Shown here: in pieces, positions 26,357 through 44,340 of the stretch
Position numbering within the stretch: the stretch's first letter is position 1
Layout of the letters: each line of letters begins with the position of its first letter
From: an uncultured Porphyromonadaceae bacterium
GTDB lineage: Bacteria; Bacteroidota; Bacteroidia; Bacteroidales; Muribaculaceae
NCBI GenBank assembly: GCA_947567425.1
Contig: CANOLV010000002.1
Span: 124,001-188,000 of the forward strand
Length of the DNA: 64,000 nt
Direction of reading: 5' to 3'
Translations under genes and position numbers: made by a program
The notes under the pieces: generated by a model
What the model was told of the DNA's origin: nothing
The model's database searches: none
What the model saw: the letters and a program-made list of their open reading frames with translations, nothing else

Positions 26357-26423
26357 CTACTTTTTTCTGAAATATATGTCAGGTTCGTCCATTCTGCCGG
26401 CGTCACACCCGTCTGCGACGGCA

Positions 26424-26501
26424 TTCGTCAATATTTGTGTGGATTTCAACGCATTATTCGTCAATATTTGTGTATATTTGCGCATAAATATTGACGAATG
26501 G
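26424..26501 (+). repeat. Upstream copy of a 78-bp direct repeat with operator-like sub-repeats
   Basis: Contains ATTCGTCAATATTTGTGT twice in direct orientation, 33 bp apart (26423 and 26456), and the same motif inverted at 26483-26500, next to the start codon of the ATPase. A second copy of the whole block lies at 27834-27911: the first 50 bases match at 49 positions and the last 28 at 17, without gaps. The three spaced motifs look like protein-binding sites. Confidence 0.8.
26473..26480 (+). promoter_or_regulatory. -7 element of the DUF4143 ATPase gene, inside the repeat block
   Basis: TATATTTG (TAnnTTTG) lies between the second direct motif and the inverted motif, so a protein bound at these motifs would cover the promoter. 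In the downstream repeat copy this element is lost. Confidence 0.55.
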
Positions 26502-29386: not shown

Positions 29387-32300
29387 ATGTTCTCCCTGCC
29401 GCGCCTCGTAGGCCGCATACTCATCCTGTTAATCCCATTAGCCGCATACTCTGCGTCCGCCGCGGGGTCAAGGCTCGCGTCCGGACGTTGGGTCAAGTTG
29501 AGGGTACCCGCTTCCGGCATATATCAAGTGAATGACCGGAGCCTTTCCGACATGGGTTTCACCAATCCCGGCAAGGTGTCGGTCGACGGACTCCCCTTCG
29601 TAAGGTATGGCGGCAAACTGATATTTTACTGCGAGGGGCCTCTCTCCGTGAGCCTCGCGGCTGACGGCGCTCCGGTGGTCGCGGCTGATCCCTGCAGCCC
29701 ATACGGCTATTGTCTGCTCACCGATTCCGGCGACGTGGCATCCGGTCTTGTGTCAGTTCCGTTTCCCGGCGACGCCGATACTGTCGTGGCCTCGCACCGC
29801 CATGTCGAGGTGGTTCATCCCGGCGAGGTGTGCTATGCCGATATGGGTTCTCGTCGGTTCGGCCACCCCTTTCAGAGCCGTTCGGTGGCCTCATATAGCT
29901 TCGGCGAGGTCATGTCGGCCGACAGCATAGCCGATGCCGCGCTCCATATAAGCTGGCTCACCGATGTGCCGGGCACGCTCTACGCCTCGCTCCGGGGTGA
30001 CGGTTGCGCCGTCATCGGTTCCGAGAGGATGGAGGCGCTGTCGGTCCGGAAGCCTTCGTTGCGCCAGTCGGAGGTGAGTTGCCGCCTTCGCCGCGGCTCT
30101 GCCCCGGAGTTTGACCTTACCTTCAGCGATGTCGCCAACAAAGGATTCACGGCTGTAGGTCATCTGGTCCTGACATACGGGGCGGCCAACTCTCTCGGCG
30201 GCCGAAAGCAGACGGTCATGCATCTGTCCGATGCCGACAGCCGTATGGCGGTCGAGGTTCCCGGTGCCGTCGAGGTATGGGATGTCACCCCCGGAGCCAC
30301 GGTCAGGCGATTGGAGGTGGTCGGCGGGCGGGTGATGCCGGCGGTGTCGGGCAGCGTCAGGCTTGTGGCGTTTGACCCCGCGGCCGAGCTTCCCGAGCCG
30401 GAGATGTGCGGACAAGTCGCTCCTCACGATCTGCTTGCCGGAGCCGGGGAGGCCGACATGCTTGTGGTGGCCTGTGCCGGGCTTCTTGAAGCCGCCGGCG
30501 AGCTTGCATCACTCCACCGCCGCCTTCAGCACCTCAATGTCATTGTGGCCTCCGACCGTCAGATCTACAATGAATACTCCTCGGGGCGCCCCTGCGCCGA
30601 AGCCATAAGGGAGTATGCACGAAGTGTTTACCTCGCTTCAGGCCGTAGGTTGCGTTATCTGCTCCTCTACGGTGGCGGTTCGTATGACAATTGGCACGCC
30701 CTTGACGGCGGATTCGCTCTGCCCACCTACCAGTGCCGTTCCGACCGCTATATGTTCGACAGTGGCAGAAGCTACTGTTCCGACGCGTTTTTCGGCATGA
30801 TGGACTCCGTGGTCGACCATGAGCAGATGTTTTTCGGCGAGGTGGCTCTCGGAGTGGGGCGCATCACAGCCTCATCTCAGACCGAGGCCCGCGATGTCAA
30901 CCGTAAGATAGAGCGTCGGCTGAGCCGTTCTGCCGATGTGGCTTCGCTGGCGCGGACGGGGGTGGTGCTCTGCGATGCCGGCGACGGAGGGTTGCATCTG
31001 CGCACCGCCGAGGAGCTTGCCGCGCAGTTTGCCGGAGGTGATGCCGGCGCGGTGGTTCATAAGGTCTACACCGACCTGACGCGGTGGTCGGGAGGACGCG
31101 CCGTGGCTGCCAAAAGCGACTATCTGCGCCATCTCCGCGCCGGATGCGGATTTGTCCACTATGCCGGCCACGGCACCGAATACAGCATCACCGGACAGAA
31201 TCTGTGGTCGGTGGCCGATGTCGGGAGTTCCGCCGGCCCGGTGCCGCCGGTGGTGTTCCATAGTTCATGCCTTAACGGACGGTTTGACGGCGACCGGCGT
31301 TCGCTTGCCGAAGCCATGCTTGCATCGCCCGACGGCGGAGCTTCGGCATGCATCATGGCCGCCCGCAACACCGACGCGTCCCACAACCGCCGCCTGCACC
31401 TCGAATTCATCCGCCTCGCTTCGGTCGCTCCGTCCGGAAGCCGTTTGGGCGATTTGTGGCTCGATGCGCAGAACGCCGTCGTGGCCACCGCACGCGAGGT
31501 GGGCCATTCGCCCCTCGCCATCAATGTACGCCACTTTAACCTTATCGGCGACCCCGCGCTTCCGCTCTACAGCCCCGCGCTGAAGGTGGTGGCCGCGCTT
31601 GACTCCTGCGGATCATCCTCCACCGGACTCGATTTCGTTCTAAGCGGACAGATCGAGAATGCCGGCGGAGGCGTGGCCCGCGGCTTTGAGGGTAAGGTGC
31701 GGGCCGAGGCATTCCTGACGGGTGCGGAGCGGGCCACGCTCGGCCAGGACGGTTCAGCTCCCGGTGCTGTCCGGGTGTCGGTCGACGATGTTCCGGTATG
31801 GGCGGGCGAGGCGCAGGTGTCCGGAGGCCGGTTCTCCATGTCGGTCAGTTTGCCCGGTTCGCTGCGTGGAGGTGCATACAGGCTGGTGTTTTCCGCCACC
31901 GACGGCCATGACGCGGCCTCGGGTGCAATATGCGGTCTAAGTGTCGGTTCAGAAGCTATGCGGACCGACTCCGTGGCTCCGCTCATATCCCGCCTCGCGG
32001 TCGACGGAGAGCGGTATGGCGGCATGGTCGTTTCGCCCCGGGCTGTGGTGGCCGAGGTGTCCGACTCCGGTTCGGGACTATGTTCCGTGGGCCACGCTCC
32101 CGGTGGTGGGTGCAGGCTGATGATCGATGGCCGGTGGGTGCCGGTCGGAGCGGAGTGCGTCAGTCAGATGTCGGCCGATCTGTGGCGTGTGGAATATCCA
32201 TTGCCCGCCTTGTCCGACGGCCGTCATTCCCTGACCCTCTCGGTCAGCGACAATGCCGGCAACCGTGCTTCACAGTCGGTTGACTTTACCCTGCTCCGGC

Positions 32301-32593
32301 GCGAAGCCTCGGCTGTGCTCGAAGCCGACAGGCGTGATGTGCGCGGAGAGGCTGCGTTCACGTGGACGCATGACCTCGGCCCCGATGCAGAGGTAGTGCT
32401 TTTGGTGCGCGACATCAATGGCCGCACAGTGTGCCGCAGGCGGTTCGACGGCGAGGAGGACAGTTATATATGGAATCTATGCGGAGCCGACGGCTTCTCC
32501 GTCGCCTCCGGACCCTACGACTGCCATCTGCTCGCCACCGACGGGCATCGCTACGCCTCGTCGGCCGCTCTCCGCATCATAGTCCTCCACTAA
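29387..32593 (+). CDS. PorU-like C25 cysteine peptidase family protein (first copy)
   Basis: A 1068-residue exported protein with a signal peptide (LIPLAAYSASAA). It begins with the PorU-type N-terminal domain (GRWVKLRVPASGIYQVNDRSL), then a gingipain-type caspase fold with His595 in YAGHGTEY and Cys628 in SSCLNG, so the dyad is intact. Ig-like domains follow, and the end (VRDINGRTVCRRRF) resembles a FlgD/type A C-terminal domain. PorU is the sortase of type IX secretion, cutting the C-terminal signal of cargo at the outer membrane. No other type IX genes adjoin it, so an ordinary C25 protease is possible. It starts 49 bp after the FAH-like gene and is convergent with the fimbrial operon. Confidence 0.75.
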   Translation: MFSLPRLVGRILILLIPLAAYSASAAGSRLASGRWVKLRVPASGIYQVNDRSLSDMGFTNPGKVSVDGLPFVRYGGKLIFYCEGPLSVSLAADGAPVVAADPCSPYGYCLLTDSGDVASGLVSVPFPGDADTVVASHRHVEVVHPGEVCYADMGSRRFGHPFQSRSVASYSFGEVMSADSIADAALHISWLTDVPGTLYASLRGDGCAVIGSERMEALSVRKPSLRQSEVSCRLRRGSAPEFDLTFSDVANKGFTAVGHLVLTYGAANSLGGRKQTVMHLSDADSRMAVEVPGAVEVWDVTPGATVRRLEVVGGRVMPAVSGSVRLVAFDPAAELPEPEMCGQVAPHDLLAGAGEADMLVVACAGLLEAAGELASLHRRLQHLNVIVASDRQIYNEYSSGRPCAEAIREYARSVYLASGRRLRYLLLYGGGSYDNWHALDGGFALPTYQCRSDRYMFDSGRSYCSDAFFGMMDSVVDHEQMFFGEVALGVGRITASSQTEARDVNRKIERRLSRSADVASLARTGVVLCDAGDGGLHLRTAEELAAQFAGGDAGAVVHKVYTDLTRWSGGRAVAAKSDYLRHLRAGCGFVHYAGHGTEYSITGQNLWSVADVGSSAGPVPPVVFHSSCLNGRFDGDRRSLAEAMLASPDGGASACIMAARNTDASHNRRLHLEFIRLASVAPSGSRLGDLWLDAQNAVVATAREVGHSPLAINVRHFNLIGDPALPLYSPALKVVAALDSCGSSSTGLDFVLSGQIENAGGGVARGFEGKVRAEAFLTGAERATLGQDGSAPGAVRVSVDDVPVWAGEAQVSGGRFSMSVSLPGSLRGGAYRLVFSATDGHDAASGAICGLSVGSEAMRTDSVAPLISRLAVDGERYGGMVVSPRAVVAEVSDSGSGLCSVGHAPGGGCRLMIDGRWVPVGAECVSQMSADLWRVEYPLPALSDGRHSLTLSVSDNAGNRASQSVDFTLLRREASAVLEADRRDVRGEAAFTWTHDLGPDAEVVLLVRDINGRTVCRRRFDGEEDSYIWNLCGADGFSVASGPYDCHLLATDGHRYASSAALRIIVLH

Positions 32594-32608: not shown

Positions 32609-35600
32609 TCAATTCTGGATACTGCGGACAAAGCAGGCATCTTTTCCTTGAGCAACATTTCCTCCTGAGATCTGGAAGAAGTCGAAAGTAAAGTAATTTA
32701 TGTCCCATCCAACTATGGCTCCTCCTTCTGAGTTTAGAGATACGTTTGTAGGAGATTCGAACCAATATATGGCTCCGGGTCGGCGGAATACGTCGAAAAA
32801 TAATGGACAGTCATTAACACCATTTGGATAAGTTGCAGGCCTATCCGTTCGTATAGGAAGCCTATCTGTATTGAAGTATCCCCATCTGTCTGTGGAGCAA
32901 TTATATCTTAATAGCCCTTTATGATTATTTATTGAGTTTATTCGGTGTCCGTATCCAGATGCTCCGATCGGGAAGAATAGATTTTTACCGGTCTTATAAT
33001 TGTAGACGAAGCATCCTCGCATGCCCTTATTTTTATCGCCCGACATATAACCGTAGACATCGCTGATTTTGGATAGTGTTTCATTCGAGCCATCACCGTA
33101 TAACACACCATACCCTTGTTCCATGTCAGAATTTCTTCCAGAATATAAATTTGCATAATCGCTTTGTCTCGCAACTCGCATCGTCGACTGAGAATCGAAT
33201 GATACTTGGTTGGGACCTGCCCAAGTACCGGTTACTTTAGATGTTATATTGTCCCATTTGGCTGTTCCGGAAGTTGCAAGCGTTAATTCTTTGTCATCAG
33301 CAGCATTCTTTATAAAGTCGTTCGGTTTTACTTCAGTCCACGGCGATTTGTTGTTGACATTGTTGCTTGAAGCTATGGGCTGATCCCAGTTGCCGAATTT
33401 AAACATCGACCCTTCGTCAAGTGGGCTGGAAGCCACACTGTCCTTGGCGACATTGTTCGAGGTCATCCACTTCACTCCATCACCGGCTATATCATCGGCA
33501 CCATACCCCTGACGCACATAGATGAGATGGACGCAGGTGTAGTTGTGGTACTCCACACGGATTATGGCATAGTTCGGATTGGCGTCGTCGGTAGTTCCGT
33601 TGAAGTTGATGGTGAAGTCCATGTTCGATCCGGTTTCACCTTCGATGGTCTGATATGTTCTTGTTATGTTGTTTTTATCTTTAAATTCTATTGAACCTGT
33701 AGTCATTGTTTCTTGATGTCCTTCAAGGCTGATTGTTCCGTTTCTGTCGTTCCAACCAGTTTTGTTATCTTCTCCTCGTTTTGTGTCGCGAATAATGAAT
33801 GCACGCCAAGGCCCTTCTGAAGCCAATGGCTTGAATTCGACAGATTCTTCATTTGGGAGAATTTTGAGCACTACGTGGAATGGATCGTTATTTTTGCCGC
33901 TTCTCCATATACCTTTGGGATTCACTATTCGGCGTACTTGCCTAATGGATATTTCTTCGCCACTTTGTGCGCCATTGTTTGTACTCAACCCAGTTGTAAG
34001 GATTGTGCTGTCAGAAAGAACTACCTTAACTTTTATTTTTGCCTCACGTTGATAAGCCGCAAAGGGGTTGTTGCCTGTGTAGGCTGTCTCTTTGATAAGC
34101 TGTTTGGCACGAGTCCATAGCGGTATGTTCACCGTATAGTGATTATTATTATCTTCATTTTTTAGCGCAACATGGGCTTCTCCATTTACAAGAGCCTCCT
34201 CTTTAGAAATAGTGCTTGGAGATAAATTGGTGTATACGCGTTTGTTACGGGCCGGACTCTGGTTATAATATGCTTGATTGGAAGTAACTGTAAATGGCTT
34301 TTCTGCCGTTATAACAGTTTCAACAGTCTTTTGTAAAGATAAAAAGCCATTCCATGGATAAGCTGTTGGATTGTCCATTTTATTCCAATAAAGGGCATAG
34401 GCATCGTTGCCGGGAGTTGCGGCTACTCCATTTTCTGCACCCATGGGTGCCCAGTTATTTGACGAGATTTCTGCTTCTATTTTACTTATTGTTGCAGTTC
34501 CTGCATCAATATCAAGCGGCAGCATCATAGAGTGGTTATAAAGATAAGATATGTAGTAAGGGTTAGGTGTTTGAATTTTTCTGTCTTCTTTTTTATAGTC
34601 GATGTGCCAGTCCACGTCGTTGGCATAGCCGTTGAAGCGGAGTGTCAGTTTGTAGTGGTGGTTGCGCTGGGTGTTGTAGTCAAGATGCGTGTCTTTTCCG
34701 AGCATGAATCGGTAGGTGATTTCTCCCTGGCCCGGATCTCCCGGGTTGATGGAGTAGTAGTAGGCCTTTACTTCGATGTATGAACCGTACTTTTTGGCAT
34801 CTTTCCAAGCCTTGTTGTCGGTGTGTATGCCTTCGGGAAATGAGGTACCCACAGTATCTTTGGCGGCCTGGTTGACCTGCTGGCGTTTGTCCGATTCGGT
34901 TCCTTCCACTCCTTTGCCCTGCATATTTTCGAACAGGAAAAGAGAGTTTATTGACTCACTATGCTGGGCTGCCAATCGTTTTTCGATATCAAGTGATGGA
35001 TCTACGGCCGCTTTCTCATCTGCTCCATATATGGCATGGCCTCTTGATATGTAGGCAGGCCATGTTTCTGTAGTGTAAATTGTGCTATCTGCAGGAGCGT
35101 AGGTTATGGTCTGTTCTGTTTTTGCAAATGGTATTTCGACCCCTTCGAGCGGCACTTTCTCCGCTTCCACCGGATAGTCGGCGCCAAGATAGCAGGAGTC
35201 GGGTATATCCTTGATGGTGACTGACTTGAGGAATATCCAGATGTTCTCCTTAAGCTTGGTTCCGTCAAATGCCACGGTGACTTTCGACACCATGCGCTTC
35301 ATCCACGAGTGGAGAGTGACGGCGTTCTGATTGATGATGACATCGCCCGTAAATCCTTCGCTTGAAGCTTCCGAACCCTGCTCGGTGGTGAAGTAGCCGA
35401 ACATCTGATTGTTCTTGGAGATGTCGTCGGAATTCCATTTCAGGCGTATTTTGTGCAGTTGGTCCTCAGTGTCGATGTCATAACCTTCGAGGCCGCCCAT
35501 GTTGGCCACGGCATATATGCGGTAGCGGCCGAAAGGCATCATGTTGGCGCGGTTCTCCACGCCGATGGTGAATTTGGCCTGGCCGGTCTTGGCCTCTGCC

Positions 35601-35968
35601 TGGTGCTGTCCGGGCTTTACCGCGTCGGCCGATGTCGACGAGTTGGTCGCAGGGGTGTAGGAATAACCTTCAAGGTCGCTTTGGGTATACTTGCGGAAGA
35701 GATTGCCCGACATGTCATAGACGAGTACGCAGAGCGACTCTATCTCGCCGATGGCGTCGCCCGGAGTGCCGCCCTCTGTGGCTCGTGAGTTGAGCGGATT
35801 GCTGATTTCATAGAAGTTGAGCTTCATGCTTACGGCGGCGTCGCCGTCGCCTATGACGGAGGGGTCGTAGATGGGGTCGTCCTTGCACGAAGCAAGAGGC
35901 ATGAGCATGGCGCATGCCGTCAGCAGACTGAGAAATCTATACTTTATGTCGGTAATCTTCAGATTCAT
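32609..35968 (-). CDS. Fimbrial tip-type lipoprotein, DUF4906-like, last gene of the fimbrial operon
   Basis: An 1119-residue lipoprotein with lipobox cysteine in MPLASCKDD. The first 300 residues look like an Mfa/FimA-type fimbrillin domain (VSMKLNFYEISNP, IESLCVLVYD, YRIYAVANMGG); the remainder is a long beta-rich extension with DUF4906-like repeats. Proteins like this cap Bacteroidales fimbriae and may be the adhesin. Base composition changes inside the gene: the 5' third is GC-rich like its neighbours, while about 32.6-34.6 kb is more AT-rich, which suggests exchange of the C-terminal part. It ends 15 bp from the convergent PorU-like gene. Confidence 0.75.
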   Translation of the reverse strand: MNLKITDIKYRFLSLLTACAMLMPLASCKDDPIYDPSVIGDGDAAVSMKLNFYEISNPLNSRATEGGTPGDAIGEIESLCVLVYDMSGNLFRKYTQSDLEGYSYTPATNSSTSADAVKPGQHQAEAKTGQAKFTIGVENRANMMPFGRYRIYAVANMGGLEGYDIDTEDQLHKIRLKWNSDDISKNNQMFGYFTTEQGSEASSEGFTGDVIINQNAVTLHSWMKRMVSKVTVAFDGTKLKENIWIFLKSVTIKDIPDSCYLGADYPVEAEKVPLEGVEIPFAKTEQTITYAPADSTIYTTETWPAYISRGHAIYGADEKAAVDPSLDIEKRLAAQHSESINSLFLFENMQGKGVEGTESDKRQQVNQAAKDTVGTSFPEGIHTDNKAWKDAKKYGSYIEVKAYYYSINPGDPGQGEITYRFMLGKDTHLDYNTQRNHHYKLTLRFNGYANDVDWHIDYKKEDRKIQTPNPYYISYLYNHSMMLPLDIDAGTATISKIEAEISSNNWAPMGAENGVAATPGNDAYALYWNKMDNPTAYPWNGFLSLQKTVETVITAEKPFTVTSNQAYYNQSPARNKRVYTNLSPSTISKEEALVNGEAHVALKNEDNNNHYTVNIPLWTRAKQLIKETAYTGNNPFAAYQREAKIKVKVVLSDSTILTTGLSTNNGAQSGEEISIRQVRRIVNPKGIWRSGKNNDPFHVVLKILPNEESVEFKPLASEGPWRAFIIRDTKRGEDNKTGWNDRNGTISLEGHQETMTTGSIEFKDKNNITRTYQTIEGETGSNMDFTINFNGTTDDANPNYAIIRVEYHNYTCVHLIYVRQGYGADDIAGDGVKWMTSNNVAKDSVASSPLDEGSMFKFGNWDQPIASSNNVNNKSPWTEVKPNDFIKNAADDKELTLATSGTAKWDNITSKVTGTWAGPNQVSFDSQSTMRVARQSDYANLYSGRNSDMEQGYGVLYGDGSNETLSKISDVYGYMSGDKNKGMRGCFVYNYKTGKNLFFPIGASGYGHRINSINNHKGLLRYNCSTDRWGYFNTDRLPIRTDRPATYPNGVNDCPLFFDVFRRPGAIYWFESPTNVSLNSEGGAIVGWDINYFTFDFFQISGGNVAQGKDACFVRSIQN

Positions 35969-36024: not shown

Positions 36025-37161
36025 CTATGGCCTGTCGATTCCGTAGTCGGGATTCAGGTCGACTCCGGTGTAGGGCAGCACTGTGACGGTGCAGGTCATC
36101 GAGCGTCCGTTGAGCTTGATGTTGACCAGCAGGTGGGTGTTGCGGGCCAGGGATTGGAGATCGGGCAGGTTGGGGAGGTCGGCTATCAGCTCGGCTCCGT
36201 TGACGGGGAGAGTGATGGAGTAGTATTTGCGGTCGGCGAGGTTGCCGTATTTGGTCTCGGGCAGATACACCGGCCCGGTGGTGAACTTGCGCTGGTCGGG
36301 GTTGTCGGTCTTGATCCAGTCGACCGTGAAGGGAGCGGTGGTAGCGTCTTTAGGTGCGTCGAAGGCGGTTATGACGCGCGGATCGCCCGACGGCGGCACT
36401 TTTGACGGTTCGTACCATGTATTGTAGGGAAAGAGGTATTCCATGTCGGCTATCTCGTTGAGGGTGATGGTCGACAGCATGCCGGGGTTGAAGTTGTAGT
36501 AGTCGGTGCCTACCTCAAGGTTGAACGTGGCCTTTATCGAGGCGCGGGTGACGAACAGCGTGGCCGTGTACGGGACCGGACGGATGCCGTCGGCGTCATA
36601 CTGCGGATCGCCGATCTGAAAATCAAAGACTTCGGTCATCGGTATGTATTGCCCCGTGGTGAACAGAGGTTGCCCGGCCTCACTCTTCAGTATGGCGGTA
36701 TTGGCGTCGTCTACCGGAAATTCCTCGCCGTTCTGCAGGCTTGAGTAGACCGACATCACATCGTCGGGAATCGAGGCTTCGTTGCCGATGAGGTATATCT
36801 TCTTTTCTTCGTTGGGCTTCACTTTGAACAGTCGCGGCTTGGTCTTTACCACATTGTCCTCGCTCACCGACACGTTGTGCTCGACACATCCGGCGCTGTC
36901 CACGATGATGAAGCGCATGGTGTGGATCTTCTCGTATGCGGTCGTGGGATCCTCGAAGTAATTGTTGTCGGGGTCGTCAAATGTATAGTCTGCGCGGCTT
37001 TGGTCGGGCATCTCGGTCGTGGCGATCGAGAGCGACATGTAGGCCATCGGTTCGCGTTCCGTCTGTCCGGGCACGGGTGTGTCGGCCTCTCCGCACCCCG
37101 ACAATGCAAGGGCAGGAAGCAGCGACGACAGCAGCAGACGGAATGGATATCTTAAATTCAT
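36025..37161 (-). CDS. Minor fimbrial subunit lipoprotein (FimC/Mfa-like)
   Basis: A protein of 378 residues from the ATG at 37161; a TTG at 37176 overlaps the previous stop codon. It has a signal peptide with lipobox ALALSGC. Segments such as IHTMRFIIVDSAGCVEHN and KIYLIGNEAS are fimbrillin-like beta strands, and the end TCTVTVLPYTGVDLNPDYGID is the usual C-terminal strand of minor subunits. It should be incorporated near the tip. It starts 4 bp after the Mfa2-like gene. Confidence 0.72.
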   Translation of the reverse strand: MNLRYPFRLLLSSLLPALALSGCGEADTPVPGQTEREPMAYMSLSIATTEMPDQSRADYTFDDPDNNYFEDPTTAYEKIHTMRFIIVDSAGCVEHNVSVSEDNVVKTKPRLFKVKPNEEKKIYLIGNEASIPDDVMSVYSSLQNGEEFPVDDANTAILKSEAGQPLFTTGQYIPMTEVFDFQIGDPQYDADGIRPVPYTATLFVTRASIKATFNLEVGTDYYNFNPGMLSTITLNEIADMEYLFPYNTWYEPSKVPPSGDPRVITAFDAPKDATTAPFTVDWIKTDNPDQRKFTTGPVYLPETKYGNLADRKYYSITLPVNGAELIADLPNLPDLQSLARNTHLLVNIKLNGRSMTCTVTVLPYTGVDLNPDYGIDRP

Positions 37162-37165
37162 ATAC

Positions 37166-38209
37166 CTAATAGTCAATGTTGTTGAGTCTTACGACCCAGT
37201 CGTTTACCACAATGTGGGTTTTTAACCAGTTCTTTTCGCTGTCGAGGAAGAAGATCATCTCCCAGCTATCCTCACGGTCAAGATATTCCTGAGCCGGCAT
37301 GGAGGCATATTTCTCGCTCTTGTAGAGCAGCAGATAGTTGACAAGCGGGATGTCGATGACGGTGCGGTTTGCGTCAGCGTCGTCGGCGTCCTTGGCGGTG
37401 ATCAGCAGGTGCATGCCGTTGGCGGGGGCCAGGCGCGAGGTGCTGAATTCGGCGAATGCAAGCGTGGTCTCGGTGCCGTCGGGGTTGAGTCCGGCGGATA
37501 CGTTGCCGGCGGTCCAGGGCATCACGTCGAAGGGTCGGCCGGAGGCTATGATGTCGTTCTTCCAGTCAAATGAGGCATTGTCGGCTCCCGTGATGGCGAA
37601 GTCGAAGTCGGCGTAGTTCACCGGATTGCCGTTGACATGCTGCAGAAGGATGCGCACGTTGTGGGTGTCGCACATCATCGGCAGGGTGACGGTGGAGTAG
37701 GTGGTGGCCGACGGTTCGGGCACGGTCACGTCGAGCGATCCGTAGTAGAGGCCGTGGAGGTCGCGGCCGGGATCGGCGCCCACGCAGTCGCGGTTCATGT
37801 CGACTCCTATCGACTGCATCAGCGAACCTTCGGAGGGGATGGCGTTGAAGTGGAACGAAGCTTCATCGCACTGCATGCCTCCGTAGGCGAGCAGATGGTA
37901 GTCGCCGGGAGCCACGTCGAGCAGCATGCGGTAGCCTTCGTCGGCCAGCACGTCGGTGGTCTCGGTCAGCGTGGTGACATATTTGTAGTCATTGTCATAG
38001 ACGAAGAGCGTCAGACAGTCCACGCGCGCCGGGAAAGCATTGCCGGGCAGCATGTTGTAGTCGTAGATGAAGCGCACTTCAATGCCGGAGACGCAGGGGT
38101 CGAGGTCTTCGTAGATGACATTGTCGCATGATGTCAGGCCGACCATAGGCGCGGCGATGGCCGCCGCACCTACGATAGACTTGAGAAAATTTAATTTAAT
38201 CAGATTCAT
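37166..38209 (-). CDS. FimB/Mfa2-family fimbrial anchor lipoprotein
   Basis: A protein of 347 residues from the ATG at 38209; the upstream ATG at 38227 overlaps the previous gene's end. The signal peptide has the lipobox MVGLTSC. The pattern after the cysteine, DLDPCVSGIEVRFIYDYNM then VDCLTLFVYD and YHLLAYGGM, is diagnostic of FimB/Mfa2 proteins, which anchor the fimbria to the outer membrane and limit its length. The C-terminus reads VNDWVVRLNNIDY, almost the same as the end of the major subunit. Confidence 0.88.
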   Translation of the reverse strand: MNLIKLNFLKSIVGAAAIAAPMVGLTSCDNVIYEDLDPCVSGIEVRFIYDYNMLPGNAFPARVDCLTLFVYDNDYKYVTTLTETTDVLADEGYRMLLDVAPGDYHLLAYGGMQCDEASFHFNAIPSEGSLMQSIGVDMNRDCVGADPGRDLHGLYYGSLDVTVPEPSATTYSTVTLPMMCDTHNVRILLQHVNGNPVNYADFDFAITGADNASFDWKNDIIASGRPFDVMPWTAGNVSAGLNPDGTETTLAFAEFSTSRLAPANGMHLLITAKDADDADANRTVIDIPLVNYLLLYKSEKYASMPAQEYLDREDSWEMIFFLDSEKNWLKTHIVVNDWVVRLNNIDY

Positions 38210-38227
38210 TATATGAAAATGAAGCAA

Positions 38228-39883
38228 TTAGAAATCGATGTTGTTGACGCGTACTACCCACGGCAATACCTGAACGTCGAGCTTGAAGTAGGTCTTGGGG
38301 CTTTCGTCGGGATCTTCCGGCTTCTCAGGATCGGGATCGTCGCCGGGATCGCCGGGATGGCCGAACTCGTTGATGGTGTTGATCTTGAGCTTGTAGACGT
38401 TGTTGCGTACTACGGCAAACTCCATCTGACCCATGTTCATGTTCTCGCCGTTGTCGTTATGACGGTTGTAGTAATAGTAGTAGCAGTAGTAGTTGCCGTC
38501 GGTCTTGTCGGGGCGGTAGATGGTGAATCCGTCGGGTGTGGTGGATAAAAGGTCGCCGTTCGAATCAAGTTTGGCGCCCGGACCGAATGCCTTTTCGTAA
38601 GTGAGCGAGAGGGTGGTGGTGGGAGCCTTTGCCACTGCGGCGGCGAGTTGGTCCTTGTCGCCGTAGATGTGGCCGTCAAATGCGTAGAGCACATGCTTGG
38701 CAGCCAGGGCAGTAGCGAAATCTGTACCGGCTACGGCTGAAAGCTTACCCTTGAACAGCACGCCGGTGGTGATACCGTGCTTCTGCTCGTCGATGCCGGG
38801 GATGGTGTTCTCGGTGGTGTAGCGCCAGATCTTGTAGTTGGTGCCTTGGCTCGGTTTCCAGTTCTCGTCGTTGTCGTCCTTGGTCAGTTCGCTTAGAGCA
38901 GTGTATTTGAGCGTGGTCGGAGTGAAGTCGGCTGTTGAGGTGGGGAAGTAGAAGTAGTCTGAAGCATCCTCTCCGGTGTATGCGGCTTTGAAGTCTTTGT
39001 TGGTGCTGACTACCCAGTTGTTGGTCGACTCGCGCTGGCACAGAACCTGGTCGGTCCAGTCGCTGTTGGGCGACATGATGGGCAGATAGTAGGCCGACTT
39101 CGACATGTTGAACAAGCTCATGCCTATGATCTCCACGTAGCCTTCGATGACATTCTCGTCGGCGTAGTTGCTGACGGGATATACGTTGGGATCGTTCGTG
39201 CCGATGGTGGTCTGCTCGAAGTCGAAGCGGGCGGCCACGCGCTGCACCTTGACCATTCCGAGATCTACGGGATTCTGACGGGTCGATTTCTCCATTTCTG
39301 TGGCGGTCGGGAGTGTGGTGGGAGCAAGGTCGCGGTTGGTCATCAGGAAGCTGTTCTCGGCCCAGATGGTAGAGTTCTCCACGGTCTCCCTGTTGAGGTC
39401 GGCAAATGTGTCGCCTGCCTTAAGCTCTGCGATTTTGTTGATGATCTGGGTAGTGGGGTTGCAGTATGCGAATATAAAGACGGGCTGTGTGGCGTTCTTG
39501 ACAAGCTCCTCCGACTTAAATTTGACTGTAAATTTCGGACGGTTGGGATTGTCGGTATTGTCTGCGCCTTGGGCGTCGGCCTGTGCCGCCGCTACGAATT
39601 TGAAGTCGGCGGGGGCTTCCGATGCCACGTCTTTTTTGGCGATTACCACAAATACGGAGTTGACTTTGTTTTCAAAGTCTTGGCCGATTTCGAATCCGGC
39701 GTCGGAGTTGGTTTCGTCGTCTTCTCCCGGAGCTACGGTCGCGCTGCGCGAGGGGAGGCTGAGGGTAAGCCGTGCGGCTATGCCGTCTTCCGGCATGTCG
39801 ATGCGGGTAGGTTCGTCTTCATTGCCGCAGGCGGTCATAAGCATGGCGGCGAGAAGTCCAAACGAATAAATTACCTTTTTCAT
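38228..39883 (-). CDS. Mfa1/FimA-family major fimbrial subunit
   Basis: A 551-residue lipoprotein precursor (lipobox MTACGNEDE). The N-terminal domain has VNSVFVVIAKKD and the C-terminal half the long insertions of Mfa1-type major fimbrillins. The last residues QVLPWVVRVNNIDF form the probable donor strand. In Porphyromonas, such subunits are matured by an Arg-gingipain cut that frees a groove for the next subunit's strand; the protease here is unknown. It is the third gene of the operon. Confidence 0.85.
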   Translation of the reverse strand: MKKVIYSFGLLAAMLMTACGNEDEPTRIDMPEDGIAARLTLSLPSRSATVAPGEDDETNSDAGFEIGQDFENKVNSVFVVIAKKDVASEAPADFKFVAAAQADAQGADNTDNPNRPKFTVKFKSEELVKNATQPVFIFAYCNPTTQIINKIAELKAGDTFADLNRETVENSTIWAENSFLMTNRDLAPTTLPTATEMEKSTRQNPVDLGMVKVQRVAARFDFEQTTIGTNDPNVYPVSNYADENVIEGYVEIIGMSLFNMSKSAYYLPIMSPNSDWTDQVLCQRESTNNWVVSTNKDFKAAYTGEDASDYFYFPTSTADFTPTTLKYTALSELTKDDNDENWKPSQGTNYKIWRYTTENTIPGIDEQKHGITTGVLFKGKLSAVAGTDFATALAAKHVLYAFDGHIYGDKDQLAAAVAKAPTTTLSLTYEKAFGPGAKLDSNGDLLSTTPDGFTIYRPDKTDGNYYCYYYYYNRHNDNGENMNMGQMEFAVVRNNVYKLKINTINEFGHPGDPGDDPDPEKPEDPDESPKTYFKLDVQVLPWVVRVNNIDF

Positions 39884-39912: not shown

Positions 39913-41352
39913 CTATATTTCGTTCCTTTTGTTGAATTCGATGATGTCGCGTGCCTGTGCCGCAGCTTCGGCCGCTTCGTCAAGACCTTCGGCCGCGGCT
40001 TCATCAAAGAAGGGCAGGGCCTTTTCGTAGCGGTGCTGCAGGGCTTCGATGAGTCCGCGGGCGTATGTGGCCTGAGGCGAGTCGCCCGATTTGGCCAGAT
40101 ATGCCTCGGCTTTGGCATATTCGCCGCGCTGGATGGCTATGTTGGCCGCGTTGAGGTTGGCAACGGCGTTGTCGGGGAACATGCGCACGGCGGTCTCAAA
40201 TACGTCGCAGTACTGCTCCGATCCCGGTTCGTAGCTCTGGGCCACGAGGAAAAGCTCGTTGAGCGAGAGGTTCTGCGGAGCGGTGGCGAGCACTTTCTTG
40301 ATCTCGTCGACGGAGGTGAACGTGCGCACTATGTAGTTGATGGTGTAGTCGGAGTGGCGCAGTGCCGGATACTCCTCGCGCAACAGGAATGCATACTGCT
40401 CGGGATAGGTCGACTGTATCTTGGCGTTCTTGGGGTCGGGGGCCAGGTCGGAGTCGATGATGGCGAGGATGCCTTCGCGGTTGGCTATGTTGCTGTTCTC
40501 CACGTAGCGCCGCAGTCCTTCCCAGTCCTCAGGCTCGTAGGAGGTGTGCATGATCGCCGGATCGAAGGCATAGAGCTTCTGCACGTAGTCCTTGAGGGTG
40601 GCTGTACGGCCCTTGGCCAGGCGGACGTTGTTCTGATAGGAGCCTTCAGGCGAGGCGAATCCCTTGATGGAGAACGAGGTGATGGTGACGTTGGAGTCGT
40701 TGCGCACCACGTCGATGGTCTTGCGTATGGCCGCCAGTTCCTCGGGGTTGCGGCGGTAGTCGGGGTATAGCTCGGTGCGGTTGACCGGGAAGTCGATGTA
40801 GGCCGATCCCTTGAGGTCGCGCTCCTTGACGGCTTCGGCCTCCGGAGTGATGAAGGCGAAGCGCGGGGCGAAGACGCGCGGCTTATAGTCGAGGCGCAGC
40901 AGGGGCATAGGGGTCAGCGGCATGTCGCATCCGCAGTCGCTCTGGCCGTACTCCACCGACAGTTCCGACACCTCCATCCAGGGCTGGTATTCAGTGATCG
41001 ACTGGTAGGGCACCACCAGCTCCTTGCCGCTGCGGTAGAGCAGGCTGGTGGCATCGTCGGGGGTGTTGCGCAGACGGTAATAGTAGCGGTTGCGGCCGGA
41101 GATGACCACTTCCGGAAACCGGTATGTCTGTCCGTCGGGTCCGTTGAGCACCGGGGTGAGCACTGTCTCCGAGTTGCCCCCCTGTTTCAGGGCCTTCGCG
41201 TCGATGTCCATGTTCAGTATCAGGTGGCTCTGGGAGCGTTCGACGCTGACCTGTTTCAGGGCTATGGCTCCGTCGAGCACGTCTACATTGACGGCATGCC
41301 CGGCCAGGAAGCCGAGAGCCATCGATAGTATGATAAGTATATTTTTCATCAC
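39913..41352 (-). CDS. DUF3868 protein with OmpA-like and TPR segments
   Basis: A 479-residue protein with a signal peptide (MALGFLAGHAVN). After a DUF3868 beta domain (YLPDYR-like and VISGRNRYYYRLRN), an OmpA-like region (TITSFSIKGFASPEGSYQNNVRLAKGRTATLKDYV) could bind peptidoglycan; the C-terminal 100 residues are TPR-like helices (NAVANLNAANIAIQRGEYAKAEAYL). DUF3868 genes accompany Mfa-type fimbrial loci in Bacteroidales, and a role in assembly or wall anchoring is inferred. It starts 37 bp after the DUF3575 gene. Confidence 0.82.
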   Translation of the reverse strand: MMKNILIILSMALGFLAGHAVNVDVLDGAIALKQVSVERSQSHLILNMDIDAKALKQGGNSETVLTPVLNGPDGQTYRFPEVVISGRNRYYYRLRNTPDDATSLLYRSGKELVVPYQSITEYQPWMEVSELSVEYGQSDCGCDMPLTPMPLLRLDYKPRVFAPRFAFITPEAEAVKERDLKGSAYIDFPVNRTELYPDYRRNPEELAAIRKTIDVVRNDSNVTITSFSIKGFASPEGSYQNNVRLAKGRTATLKDYVQKLYAFDPAIMHTSYEPEDWEGLRRYVENSNIANREGILAIIDSDLAPDPKNAKIQSTYPEQYAFLLREEYPALRHSDYTINYIVRTFTSVDEIKKVLATAPQNLSLNELFLVAQSYEPGSEQYCDVFETAVRMFPDNAVANLNAANIAIQRGEYAKAEAYLAKSGDSPQATYARGLIEALQHRYEKALPFFDEAAAEGLDEAAEAAAQARDIIEFNKRNEI

Positions 41353-41389
41353 CGTGTAATAAATGGGTATGTGTGAAGAGGTTGCTTTG

Positions 41390-41971
41390 TTAGAATGTGT
41401 AGATTAGGCTGACGGCCGCTTTGGTCGGTCCGACATAGTGCACGGGCTTGTCCTTGTAGTCGGGGGTGCCGCATTCGGCGCACGGATAGGAGGTGGCCTT
41501 GGTGTAGACCCAGCCGAAGCCTATCTCGGCCTCGATGTTCCAGTGGCGCGACAGTATCCATGAATATCCGTAGGCCACGCCCAGACCGCCGTACCAGCCT
41601 TCATAGCGGTGGTGCTTGAAGTCGCCGAGTTTGTTGCCGAGCAGGTTGAGGTTGGGGAAGTCGGCATTGCCGATGTTGTACTGGCCCACCAGGGCGTGTG
41701 CCCCGACGAAGTGTCCCTGCCATTCCTGGCAGAACCAGTAGCGCACTTCAGGCTGCAGGAGCCAGTGGCGCCAGCGGTGGCCGTTGACGTTCCACGCATT
41801 TATGTTGCCCGACAGGTCGAAAGTCCATTTGGGGGCAAGTCTGACTTCCGCTCCTGCATTTACGGTCAGCAGGGCGTCGTAGAGCAGGTTGGTCTTCACT
41901 GCTACATCCTGGGCCTTGGCCGCATGAGCCGATGCTATGAGCGTCAGTAAAAGGATAATTACTTTCTTCAT
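41390..41971 (-). CDS. DUF3575 outer-membrane protein, first gene of the fimbrial operon
   Basis: A 193-residue protein with signal peptide (LLLTLIASAHAAKA). It begins VAVKTNLLYDALLTVNAGAEVRLAPKW, the typical DUF3575 opening, and alternating aromatic strands with a terminal IYTF suggest a small beta-barrel. DUF3575 and DUF3868 genes lead many Bacteroidales fimbrial operons. The leader upstream is about 378 bases if the invertible promoter is used. Confidence 0.85.
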   Translation of the reverse strand: MKKVIILLLTLIASAHAAKAQDVAVKTNLLYDALLTVNAGAEVRLAPKWTFDLSGNINAWNVNGHRWRHWLLQPEVRYWFCQEWQGHFVGAHALVGQYNIGNADFPNLNLLGNKLGDFKHHRYEGWYGGLGVAYGYSWILSRHWNIEAEIGFGWVYTKATSYPCAECGTPDYKDKPVHYVGPTKAAVSLIYTF

Positions 41972-42327
41972 TATTTTGAGTTATTATATGTAGCGTTGAT
42001 ATATTAAGGCTGAATGGAGGGAATAAGTTTATATGTAGGGGGCATGTACGGAGATAAGGGGATCACCCATCGGCCAAGTCGGATAAAGTGCGATTTCCTC
42101 TGTCCATAGTGTCGTACTTATATCCATGCCTGTGAGCAACCTTCCCGCTTCGTTGTGTTCAGATATTGCGGACCTCTTCATATTTCGTGTCGTCGTGCAT
42201 GCGGACTTTACTGTCAGAGTGTGCCTGTGTGTCCGTGATGCAACTCTTAAATTTTATTAATGTAGCGTCGTTTGACTTATTGTGTATATCGGTTTAAACC
42301 AGGGACTTGCGTAAAGCTCCCGTCACT
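41972..42327 (-). promoter_or_regulatory. Long 5' leader of the fimbrial operon
   Basis: This gap of 356 bp lies between the left inverted repeat and the DUF3575 gene. I see no ORF with gene-like features, no RNA gene and no second promoter match, so it should be transcribed leader when the promoter faces the operon. Confidence 0.4.
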
Positions 42328-42343
42328 ATCTCTCCGTAAGAGA
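42328..42343. repeat. Left inverted repeat of the candidate invertible promoter
   Basis: ATCTCTCCGTAAGAGA is the exact reverse complement of 42516-42531. With one more base it is ATCTCT-CCGTA-AGAGAT: matching six-base arms around an asymmetric five-base core, as in a site-specific recombinase crossover site. Confidence 0.8.
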
Positions 42344-42355
42344 TAATAATTATCG

Positions 42356-42386
42356 CAAAGATAATTAATAATTCAATAACACACAA
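42356..42386 (-). promoter_or_regulatory. Promoter within the invertible segment, facing the fimbrial operon
   Basis: On the minus strand, TATCTTTG (42363-42356) is preceded 20 bases upstream by TTG (42386-42384). The start should lie close to 42349, just inside the left inverted repeat. Confidence 0.7.
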
Positions 42387-42515
42387 GTGATTGGCCGATT
42401 TTATTTTCCTGCTTTTTATGCGCCGTTGCTAAACAATATTCATGCTTTGGTGGTGAATAATTAGTTTCCGACACCTTCTGAGCACCTTGAAACGGCGTTT
42501 TTGACCCTGTTGCCC

Positions 42516-42531
42516 TCTCTTACGGAGAGAT
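42516..42531. repeat. Right inverted repeat of the candidate invertible promoter
   Basis: TCTCTTACGGAGAGAT, exact reverse complement of 42328-42343. It lies 12 bp from the stop codon of the sulfatase gene. Confidence 0.8.
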
Positions 42532-42543
42532 GCGGAGTGAGGA

Positions 42544-44340
42544 TTACTCCTGGCTGAATGTGTCGAATGTGATGATGCGGTCCGACACGCCGCGGGCGCC
42601 GAGTATGTTGCTCACCACGGCCGGGTCCACACCTGTGGTGTCGCCCACGATGCGGTTGGTCATGGAGCTTACCGCGAATGCCGGTTTGCCGGGAGTGAAC
42701 ACGCTTTGGCCCATGCCTTTCCAGCGGTAGCCGTCGAGGTGCATGAGGTTGAGCAGCGTGGGATACATGTCGACCTGACCCATCACCTTGTCGTAGCGTC
42801 CGCCGATGGGGGAGTTGAGCACGATGAAGGGGGTGAACTGCTGGTCCGACACTATTCCCTTGGCTTCGGGATGCTTGAGAAGTCCGGCGCGGTCTGAGGC
42901 CAGACCTTCATGGTCGCCGGTGATGACTATGAGCGTACTGTCGTAGTCGGAGCGCGACTTCAGATAGTCGATCAGCTCGCCGAGCGAGCGGTCGGTGTAG
43001 TTGACCATGGTCATGTAGTCGACCATGCGCTGCGGATATTTTTCGCTGAAGTCGATGCCTTTGAGCTTGTCGGGGAGCCTGAACGGATTGTGGCCGGAGT
43101 AGGTGACAAACTGGACGAAGGCATTCTCCCCTTCGGGCCATATCTCCCCATGCTTCATCTTCTCGACGCTCTGTCGCAGGAAGGAGCCGTCGCTGAGTTT
43201 GGCCGGATTGCCCACAAGCTCGTCGTTGCGCCATGAGCCGCGGTCGAGCAGGGTGTCGATGCCGAATGAACGGGCTATCGGTTCCTGGTTCCATACGATC
43301 GGCTTGTCGCAGGTAAGGATATAGCCTCTGGCTCCGTTCTTCTCCTTCAGGGCCTGGTTGAGGGTGAAGTATGTGTTGTCGGGGTATTTCATGCTGTAGA
43401 CCGACGATTCCATGGGCATCATGCCGGCATTGAGAAGGAGCTGGCAGTCGATGGAGCGTCCGGATCCCACCTGGGTCAGCACGTTGGGGGCATAGAAGGT
43501 GGTGGGGTCTTTAAGCAGTGAGTTTATCACCGGGGTGATCTGGCGTCCGTCGACTTCGCGGTCTATCACCCAGCTTTCGAGCGACTCGCAGAGGATTATG
43601 ACGAGGTTGCTTCGGCCGGGGATGCTGTCGGACAGCGGTATGTAGGGCCTGAGCGACTCCTTTTGCTCGATCCAGCCGGAGATCGTGCGCCGGTCGTCGT
43701 CGGTCATCTCGCGCGACGTGCCGATGGCGTCATAAAGGATGCTTCCGCCGACGGTGTAGACGGGGGTGGTGCAGGTGGTGTAGTAGCACGACTCTTTCAG
43801 CTTGGAGTAGTGGGCCGTGAATCCTCCGCGCGCCAGGGCGGTCAGATAGGCGAGAAGCCCGGCGGCGATAAGGGTCAGGATATAGCGCATGAGGCTCCCT
43901 TTGGGAAACCGGTGGCAGGCCGGAACGCAGATGACGGCGGTGGCCGCGGTGGAGAGCGGGAGCAGCAGGTCGGACCAGCGCATGGAGTCGACCACGCTGG
44001 CCTTGAAGTCGCTCAGATTGCCGGCTAAAAGGTAGCTGTCGAGAGGTATGGCTGTGAAGTAGGTGCGGCAATACATCAGATTGCATATCAGCAGGATGTC
44101 TGTCAGAAACAGCACTGCCGTGGCCACCCACAGCCGCCGTGTGAGCGCGTAGGGGAGGGTTAGGACCAGGGCCGCGAACAGGGCGTTGACGTATAGCCCT
44201 ATGTCCGACATGGCGCGGAAAGTGGTTCCGGCGCACCAGAGCACGTCGAAGATGATGAGTTTCAGGAAGGCTCCACCCACGAGTAGAGTCAGGCGTCCAG
44301 CCCATTGGTCGGCAGGAAAGAGGCGGCTGAATAATTTCAT
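42544..44340 (-). CDS. LtaS-like membrane sulfatase-family enzyme (phosphoglycerol transferase type)
   Basis: A 598-residue protein. Five N-terminal membrane helices (to about residue 160) precede a periplasmic alkaline-phosphatase-fold domain. Metal and nucleophile motifs: VIILCESLESW, VGSGRSIDCQLLL (with Ser in the nucleophile position), and VITGDHEG. Relatives such as LtaS or OpgB move phosphoglycerol or phosphoethanolamine onto membrane or periplasmic glycans. The acceptor here is unknown. It begins one base after the FNT gene ends and is probably the last gene of that operon. Confidence 0.85.
   Translation of the reverse strand: MKLFSRLFPADQWAGRLTLLVGGAFLKLIIFDVLWCAGTTFRAMSDIGLYVNALFAALVLTLPYALTRRLWVATAVLFLTDILLICNLMYCRTYFTAIPLDSYLLAGNLSDFKASVVDSMRWSDLLLPLSTAATAVICVPACHRFPKGSLMRYILTLIAAGLLAYLTALARGGFTAHYSKLKESCYYTTCTTPVYTVGGSILYDAIGTSREMTDDDRRTISGWIEQKESLRPYIPLSDSIPGRSNLVIILCESLESWVIDREVDGRQITPVINSLLKDPTTFYAPNVLTQVGSGRSIDCQLLLNAGMMPMESSVYSMKYPDNTYFTLNQALKEKNGARGYILTCDKPIVWNQEPIARSFGIDTLLDRGSWRNDELVGNPAKLSDGSFLRQSVEKMKHGEIWPEGENAFVQFVTYSGHNPFRLPDKLKGIDFSEKYPQRMVDYMTMVNYTDRSLGELIDYLKSRSDYDSTLIVITGDHEGLASDRAGLLKHPEAKGIVSDQQFTPFIVLNSPIGGRYDKVMGQVDMYPTLLNLMHLDGYRWKGMGQSVFTPGKPAFAVSSMTNRIVGDTTGVDPAVVSNILGARGVSDRIITFDTFSQE

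Follow-up and report, generated by a model that had tools for sequence, protein, structure and literature searches.

The window, that is the whole stretch of DNA analysed here (64 kb), corresponds to G000:C2:124001-188000 of the source genome (G000; 2.9 Mb, 92% complete). It contains a predicted fimbrial operon composed of closely spaced genes on the minus strand (Table 1). The genes of the fimbrillin (PF15495) and of the Mfa2-type anchor protein (PF08842) are adjacent and, judged by these domain matches, the operon is type V-pilus-like. A Peptidase_C25 protein with a weak Ig-like match is encoded just beyond the operon end, in convergent orientation (29387-32593). Region 41300-42700 contains no Rfam match at gathering score, and an RNA leader was set aside on this count.

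Table 1 Features of the fimbrial locus and of the segment upstream of it (window positions).
Feature	Position	Strand	Remarks
Large protein, putative last gene of the operon	32609..35968	-	DUF4906, 26.2 bits against a curated cut-off of 27.7 bits (sub-threshold)
Operon protein without Pfam match at E 0.001	36025..37176	-	
Mfa2-type anchor protein	37166..38227	-	PF08842, 9.3e-49
Fimbrillin (pilin) with Fimbrillin_C domain	38228..39883	-	PF15495, 2.1e-20
DUF3868/TPR protein	39913..41352	-	PF12984, 3.3e-10
DUF3575 protein, operon gene 1	41390..41971	-	PF12099, 7.9e-72
Leader, left site to first gene	41972..42327	-	356 nt between DUF3575 start and left repeat
Putative invertible segment, 204 bp	42328..42531	.	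Site spacing 187 bp, start to start
Putative left recombination site, ATCTCT-CCGTA-AGAGAT	42328..42344	.	Imperfect palindrome, asymmetric 5-nt core
Predicted Bacteroidales-type promoter, TTG-N20-TATCTTTG	42356..42386	-	Aimed at the fimbrial operon, ON as assembled
Putative right recombination site, inverted copy	42515..42531	.	Core identical to left site
Sulfatase	42544..44340	-	PF00884, 5.3e-20; 3' end 12 nt outside the right repeat

The operon is preceded by two 16-nt arms (42328-42343 and 42516-42531) that are 100% complementary and have 172 nt between them. No other exact 16-mer inverted repeat with 60-600 nt between its arms is found in the 64-kb window. First-order Markov resampling of the window (60 resamples) yields such repeats with a mean of 0.05 and a maximum of 2, and a chance repeat was rejected on this count. 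The preliminary description had reported this exact repeat, the lack of a gene in the 172 bp between its arms, and a site made of six-base arms around an asymmetric CCGTA core. All three hold: the arms match exactly, segment 42328-42531 has no ORF of at least 80 aa, and the left site reads as given in Table 1. The right site (42515-42531) differs from the left one by a single outer-arm base. The window has no further segment of the ATCTCT-N5-AGAGAT class. Nested near-perfect inverted repeats of 17-18 nt are visible at 26422-26500.

A perfect match to the Bacteroidales promoter is found inside the segment. On the minus strand, TTG (42386-42384) is followed by 20 nt and by TATCTTTG (42363-42356). 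The end of this box is 11 nt inward from the left repeat. Passages of two papers give TAnnTTTG as the -7 consensus of B. fragilis (PMC4747536, PMC3090145). The opposite strand of segment 42328-42531 has no TAnnTTTG. The preliminary description had placed this promoter just inside the left repeat and directed it at the fimbrial operon, with the segment shown ON. Its coordinates are correct and the minus-strand operon indeed lies downstream. The segment thus has the layout of a promoter inverton: it is intergenic, it is bounded by perfect or near-perfect inverted repeats and it carries a TAnnTTTG-type promoter beside one of them. E. coli-type promoters and terminators showed no excess over shuffles and were set aside.

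A search of the source genome for further copies of the site, as suggested in the preliminary description, revealed a second pair, with another core and also before a fimbrial operon. The relaxed pattern TCTCTN5AGAGA occurs at four places in the whole source genome (the reversed pattern, taken as a control, gave 2 per strand). They make up two pairs with different cores. One is the pair of the window; the other (G000:C9:12240-12448, core TCCGT) is located ~118 nt before a second DUF3575 gene, which is followed by DUF3868-like and Mfa2-like genes. The promoter of this second element is 12 nt inside the repeat and points away from the fimbrial genes. As assembled, it is directed towards a DUF5106/thioredoxin-like gene 124 nt away (L064:6154-7116, G000:C9). 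Hence, the OFF state of the pilus at this element may be the ON state of the DUF5106/thioredoxin-like gene. Inspection by eye also showed the motif GTAGCGT near both fimbrial elements, at window positions 41990-41996 and 42262-42269 and at L026 ~1131-1141.

The same site class is found among relatives. All 14 genomes of the genus contain ATCTCTN5AGAGA, and in no fewer than 8 the sites form close pairs with a common core; control counts were 0-2 per strand. The exact 17-mer site is found in 107 of the 197 genomes of the family. At the level of the order, a close exact-arm pair is found in 13 of 393 genomes, 3 from this family and 10 from others. In a logo of 112 sites, ATCTCT and AGAGAT are near-invariant and the centre is variable; since the elements were picked by nearly those arms, the selection itself accounts for part of the conservation of the arms, but not for the variety of the cores.

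Relatives were then used to compare promoter position and orientation. From 43 stretches, including L018, L022 and the window and mostly picked because listings showed paired sites, 37 elements were drawn by their site pair alone, with the promoter ignored. L139_3002, the outer element of a nested pair, was dropped (n = 36). In 33 of the 36 elements, including that of the window, TAnnTTTG lies 9-17 nt inside one repeat and not the other; no element has it inside both repeats and three have it inside neither. Markov resampling of the 36-element set (500 resamples) gives a mean of 0.63 and a maximum of 4 for the one-repeat count. Orientation was called in the 18 elements having a gene start within ~600 nt on one side only. 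Nine of them are ON, among which the window element, and nine are OFF; a further 15 elements have gene starts on both sides and three are without box.

These orientations bear on a first alternative, namely a static promoter placed between palindromic regulator sites, or within a looping operator, that would not invert at all. Each site is near-palindromic, as operators often are, and the spacing of the sites is helically phased (see below), as in looping operators. However, in 9 of the 18 decidable elements the promoter aims away from the sole nearby gene start, which a fixed promoter would not do. Moreover, the orthologous elements L078 (G004) and L083 (G012) have flanks that align in the same direction on both sides (81% over 1095 nt and 84% over 1426 nt), whereas their interiors align in reverse (77% over 215 nt). 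According to these alignments, one orthologous element is found in opposite orientations in two species. We therefore consider the static promoter very unlikely. Among recombinase-linked elements, L170 also has its interior reversed with respect to L158 and to L065, with left flanks in the same direction, in alignments of only 37-42 nt. The remaining similar interiors with comparable left flanks run in the same direction. Both orientations are thus seen for another member of the class between two species, and across loci. The window element is seen in its assembled form only, which is ON, and we infer inversion of segment 42328-42531 from these relatives.

Some elements show particular layouts. 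In L075:5298-5723 (G003:C1), a 426-bp element with 409-bp spacing separates two divergently oriented fimbrial operons. In this either/or arrangement, a single promoter could drive the one pilus or the other. In L077:5031-6471 (G004:C1), a 1441-bp element precedes a TonB-receptor gene and contains a DDE transposase gene. L082 (5080-5127) and L139 (3002, 3094, 3297) carry additional, directly oriented sites of identical core, 31 and 92 nt apart. Such direct-orientation sites would permit deletion besides inversion.

The cores of the sites are common to both ends of each pair and vary between elements. Counting identical elements once, there are 61 pairs of neighbouring sites at 120-450 bp from each other, and the two cores are identical in 56 of these pairs. 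Permutation of the cores among the 56 leaves 2.6 matches on average, with a maximum of 8. The five unequal-core pairs, four of them 130-131 nt apart and one 305 nt apart, are read as neighbouring sites of two tandem elements. In one orthologous element, the core is TAGTA at both ends in one case and TACTA at both ends in the other. Identity within pairs is needed by recombination, not by a regulator, so that the variation of cores between elements and their identity within pairs also argue against the static promoter. G179 and G072 reuse cores, which excludes a strict rule of distinct cores within a genome. Because of this reuse, reading the cores as an address code is a possibility only; pair-specific cores could keep switches from recombining with each other.

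A mobile miniature element was considered as well. Short inverted repeats around ~170 bp would suit such an element. However, the interiors are mostly unrelated: joining 58 elements by any similarity leaves 40 groups. The promoter box also sits at one fixed place in 33 of the 36 elements. A miniature transposable element was rejected on the basis of the interiors and, taken together with the chance repeat discarded above (~0.05 exact repeats expected per resampled window), is extremely improbable.

Spacing between the two sites peaks near 174, 185, 196 and 207 bp. With the 49 of the 56 values that are at most 209 bp, the best period is 11.3 (R 0.66), and none of 5000 smoothed resamples reached this value. 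After thinning to one value per cluster, the remaining 33 values give a period of 11.2 and R 0.62 (0 of 3000 resamples). We also examined 19 values mostly from other families, including G519 (195 bp); at the preset period, R is 0.66 (p 2.6e-4), with a phase shifted by ~1 bp and with values confined by the search to 172-202 bp. Without G519, the 18 values, 17 of which are from other families, give R 0.68 (p 2e-4). This outside set leaves out G568 and a second G519 pair, which have unequal cores, and a sixth G225 pair that was unlisted. We interpret the spacing period of ~11 bp as a short loop on which both sites have to lie on one face of the helix, and spacing that follows the helix would imply a rigid short-loop synapse. 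Neither core identity nor the ~11-bp spacing rule was found described in the passages of literature examined.

The preliminary description had also suggested a genome search for a tyrosine or a serine recombinase, and both kinds are present. Two serine recombinase genes (PF00239) are located at G000:C2:2520 and 4100. Five Phage_integrase matches correspond to a XerD-like, a XerC-like, a 424-aa and a 425-aa protein and to a broken fragment. The 425-aa tyrosine recombinase, L004 (G000:C3:20210-21484), is composed of Arm-DNA-bind_5, Phage_int_SAM_5 and Phage_integrase domains. R274, K300, R373, H396 and Y405, which we take to be the catalytic residues, are invariant in six members of the L004 family. 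L004 reaches no cut-off in NCBIfam. A broken relative of this candidate, L005, with internal stops, is found at G000:C38:2434-2751.

The L004 family is present in 13 of 14 genomes of the genus at E<=1e-20, including all 9 genomes with a completeness of at least 90%. In the whole family, 125 of 197 genomes have it at E<=1e-60. Site numbers track the presence of this recombinase family: the mean number of exact sites per genome is 2.33 with a match at E<=1e-100 (n = 97), 0.75 with a weaker match (n = 28) and 0.43 without match (n = 72). Two or more exact sites are found in 53 of the 97 genomes with a match at E<=1e-100, as compared with 10 of the 100 others (p = 1.1e-11), the cut having been set after the table was inspected and the statistics ignoring phylogeny. 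Five of the 72 genomes without match at E<=1e-60 (G033, G100, G126, G172 and G189) have at least two exact sites.

Site pairs also adjoin the recombinase genes themselves. The analysis covered 80 recombinase loci from named genomes, some of them on contigs already listed under the G handles (e.g. L173 = L065). A site pair is found within 1 kb in 28 of these loci. It is invariably downstream of the gene, at a distance of 36-171 nt in 24 loci. The other 52 loci have no site pair within 1 kb by the rule applied here; in 14 of the 80, the contig stops at most 310 nt downstream of the gene. Contig ends were considered as a sign of mixed orientation and dropped, as 8 contigs also stop at most 300 nt upstream of the gene. 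In total, 760 kb of recombinase loci contain 33 site pairs, and one shuffle per locus contains none. Outside the family, the L004 family (E<=1e-100) is present in 9 of 9 genomes with core-matched pairs, as compared with 3 of 12 hand-picked sister genomes (p = 0.001); at E<=1e-20, 5 of the 12 sister genomes match. G568, the tenth outside genome found to have a site pair, was omitted from this comparison, its cores being unequal. In 4 of the 9 genomes the recombinase gene is 36-119 nt from a listed element. The best match of G447, one of the nine, holds two stops.

Thus, the source genome encodes a tyrosine recombinase whose family is linked to the sites in relatives, and L004 is the putative cognate enzyme of the window element. 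From these associations, the conserved 425-aa protein, and not XerC or XerD, appears as the likeliest enzyme. L002 and L001, which best match XerC/XerD slightly under the equivalog cut-offs, have orthologues genus-wide and were rejected as the enzyme; a helper role is possible. The invertible promoter could instead be served by another enzyme, either an Mpi-like serine invertase, XerC/XerD or the second, 424-aa tyrosine recombinase. Two serine recombinases and other tyrosine recombinases are indeed available in the genome, and the L004 gene is not beside the element. No site pair is found in the 13 kb examined at the source genome's own copy (L234), nor in the 6-13 kb around its orthologues in G002, G004, G010 and G012 (L237-L240). 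G001 is the only inspected neighbourhood of the genus with an element near the recombinase gene, 1.0-1.3 kb away. Against another enzyme stand the site pairs that adjoin L004-family genes in many relatives and the site numbers that follow this family. We consider its involvement improbable.

Altogether, segment 42328-42531 is very probably an invertible promoter flipped by a tyrosine recombinase, most likely L004. The reading of the preliminary description, an invertible fimbrial promoter, is supported by the second element, the fixed box in 33 of 36 elements, the nine ON and nine OFF orientations, the reversed orthologue and the recombinase linkage. In the mechanism that we propose from sequence comparison, the recombinase would bind both ATCTCT-N5-AGAGAT sites and pair them on a short DNA loop. 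Strand exchange inside the identical cores would then turn the 204-bp segment round. In the ON state, as assembled, the promoter would drive the DUF3575-fimbrillin-Mfa2 operon. In the OFF state, the flipped promoter would direct antisense transcription into the sulfatase gene from its 3' end, and the pilus operon would lose its promoter. Pilus expression would thus follow the orientation of the segment. The same enzyme should also act on the second element (G000:C9:12240-12448). In a wider proposal, a single tyrosine recombinase family would run a promoter switchboard across Muribaculaceae and, patchily, other Bacteroidales, with fixed arms, paired 5-nt cores evolving in step and helix-following spacing. 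We see this wider proposal as evenly poised.

Several related systems are known. In B. fragilis, passages of PMC4747536 describe master invertases: the serine recombinase Mpi acts at 13 regions, Tsr0667 serves nine regions besides three SusC/SusD clusters, and Tsr19 (BF2766) acts at a local and a distant promoter. Mpi, with one master enzyme for many capsule promoters, resembles the present case, in which the linked enzyme is a tyrosine recombinase instead (PMC4747536). Tsr19 is itself a tyrosine recombinase, encoded beside one element and also acting on a distant one (PMC4747536). As in the Tsr19 and Tsr0667 systems, inverted repeats flank a TAnnTTTG promoter and surface structures are the targets (passages of PMC4747536 and PMC3090145); the site class is here ATCTCT-N5-AGAGAT, the systems being compared by description only. 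A phase-variable locus for a pilus-related surface protein of B. fragilis (Weinacht 2004, as cited in part of the review PMC12632263) is likewise placed under type V pili, with tyrosine recombinases and DNA inversion; it belongs to another organism and is also compared by description only. The E. coli fimS switch, inverted by the tyrosine recombinase FimB, controls a pilus operon too. According to PMC9993118, it is a 314-bp switch of type 1 fimbriae, whereas the class described here is spread over several loci, has varying cores and concerns a different kind of pilus.

Invertons of the hCom2 community have been grouped by repeat motif. Passages of PMC11892184 report fimbrillin genes enriched downstream of groups 137, 112 and 122, and site-specific integrase genes near groups 136, 126, 137, 48 and 116. 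Fimbrillin downstream and an integrase nearby recall our elements, a likeness in gene context. The string 'Muribac' is absent from the main text of that paper. The motifs of Jiang et al. 2019 may already include the site class described here. With the B. fragilis master invertases, the hCom2 fimbrillin invertons and the Weinacht locus at hand, the element belongs to a known kind: the kind of switch is already known and the Muribaculaceae element is a further case. Among the open-licence papers searched, we found none that combines Muribaculaceae with DNA inversion.

Muribaculaceae are major bacteria of the mouse gut. If our reading is true, pilus expression in this family would be a heritable coin flip, and the state of the switch would be readable from any metagenome by means of the site pattern. 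Loss of one gene could then lock the pilus switch. The rules of core identity and helical phase would offer testable predictions on how one enzyme serves many switches.
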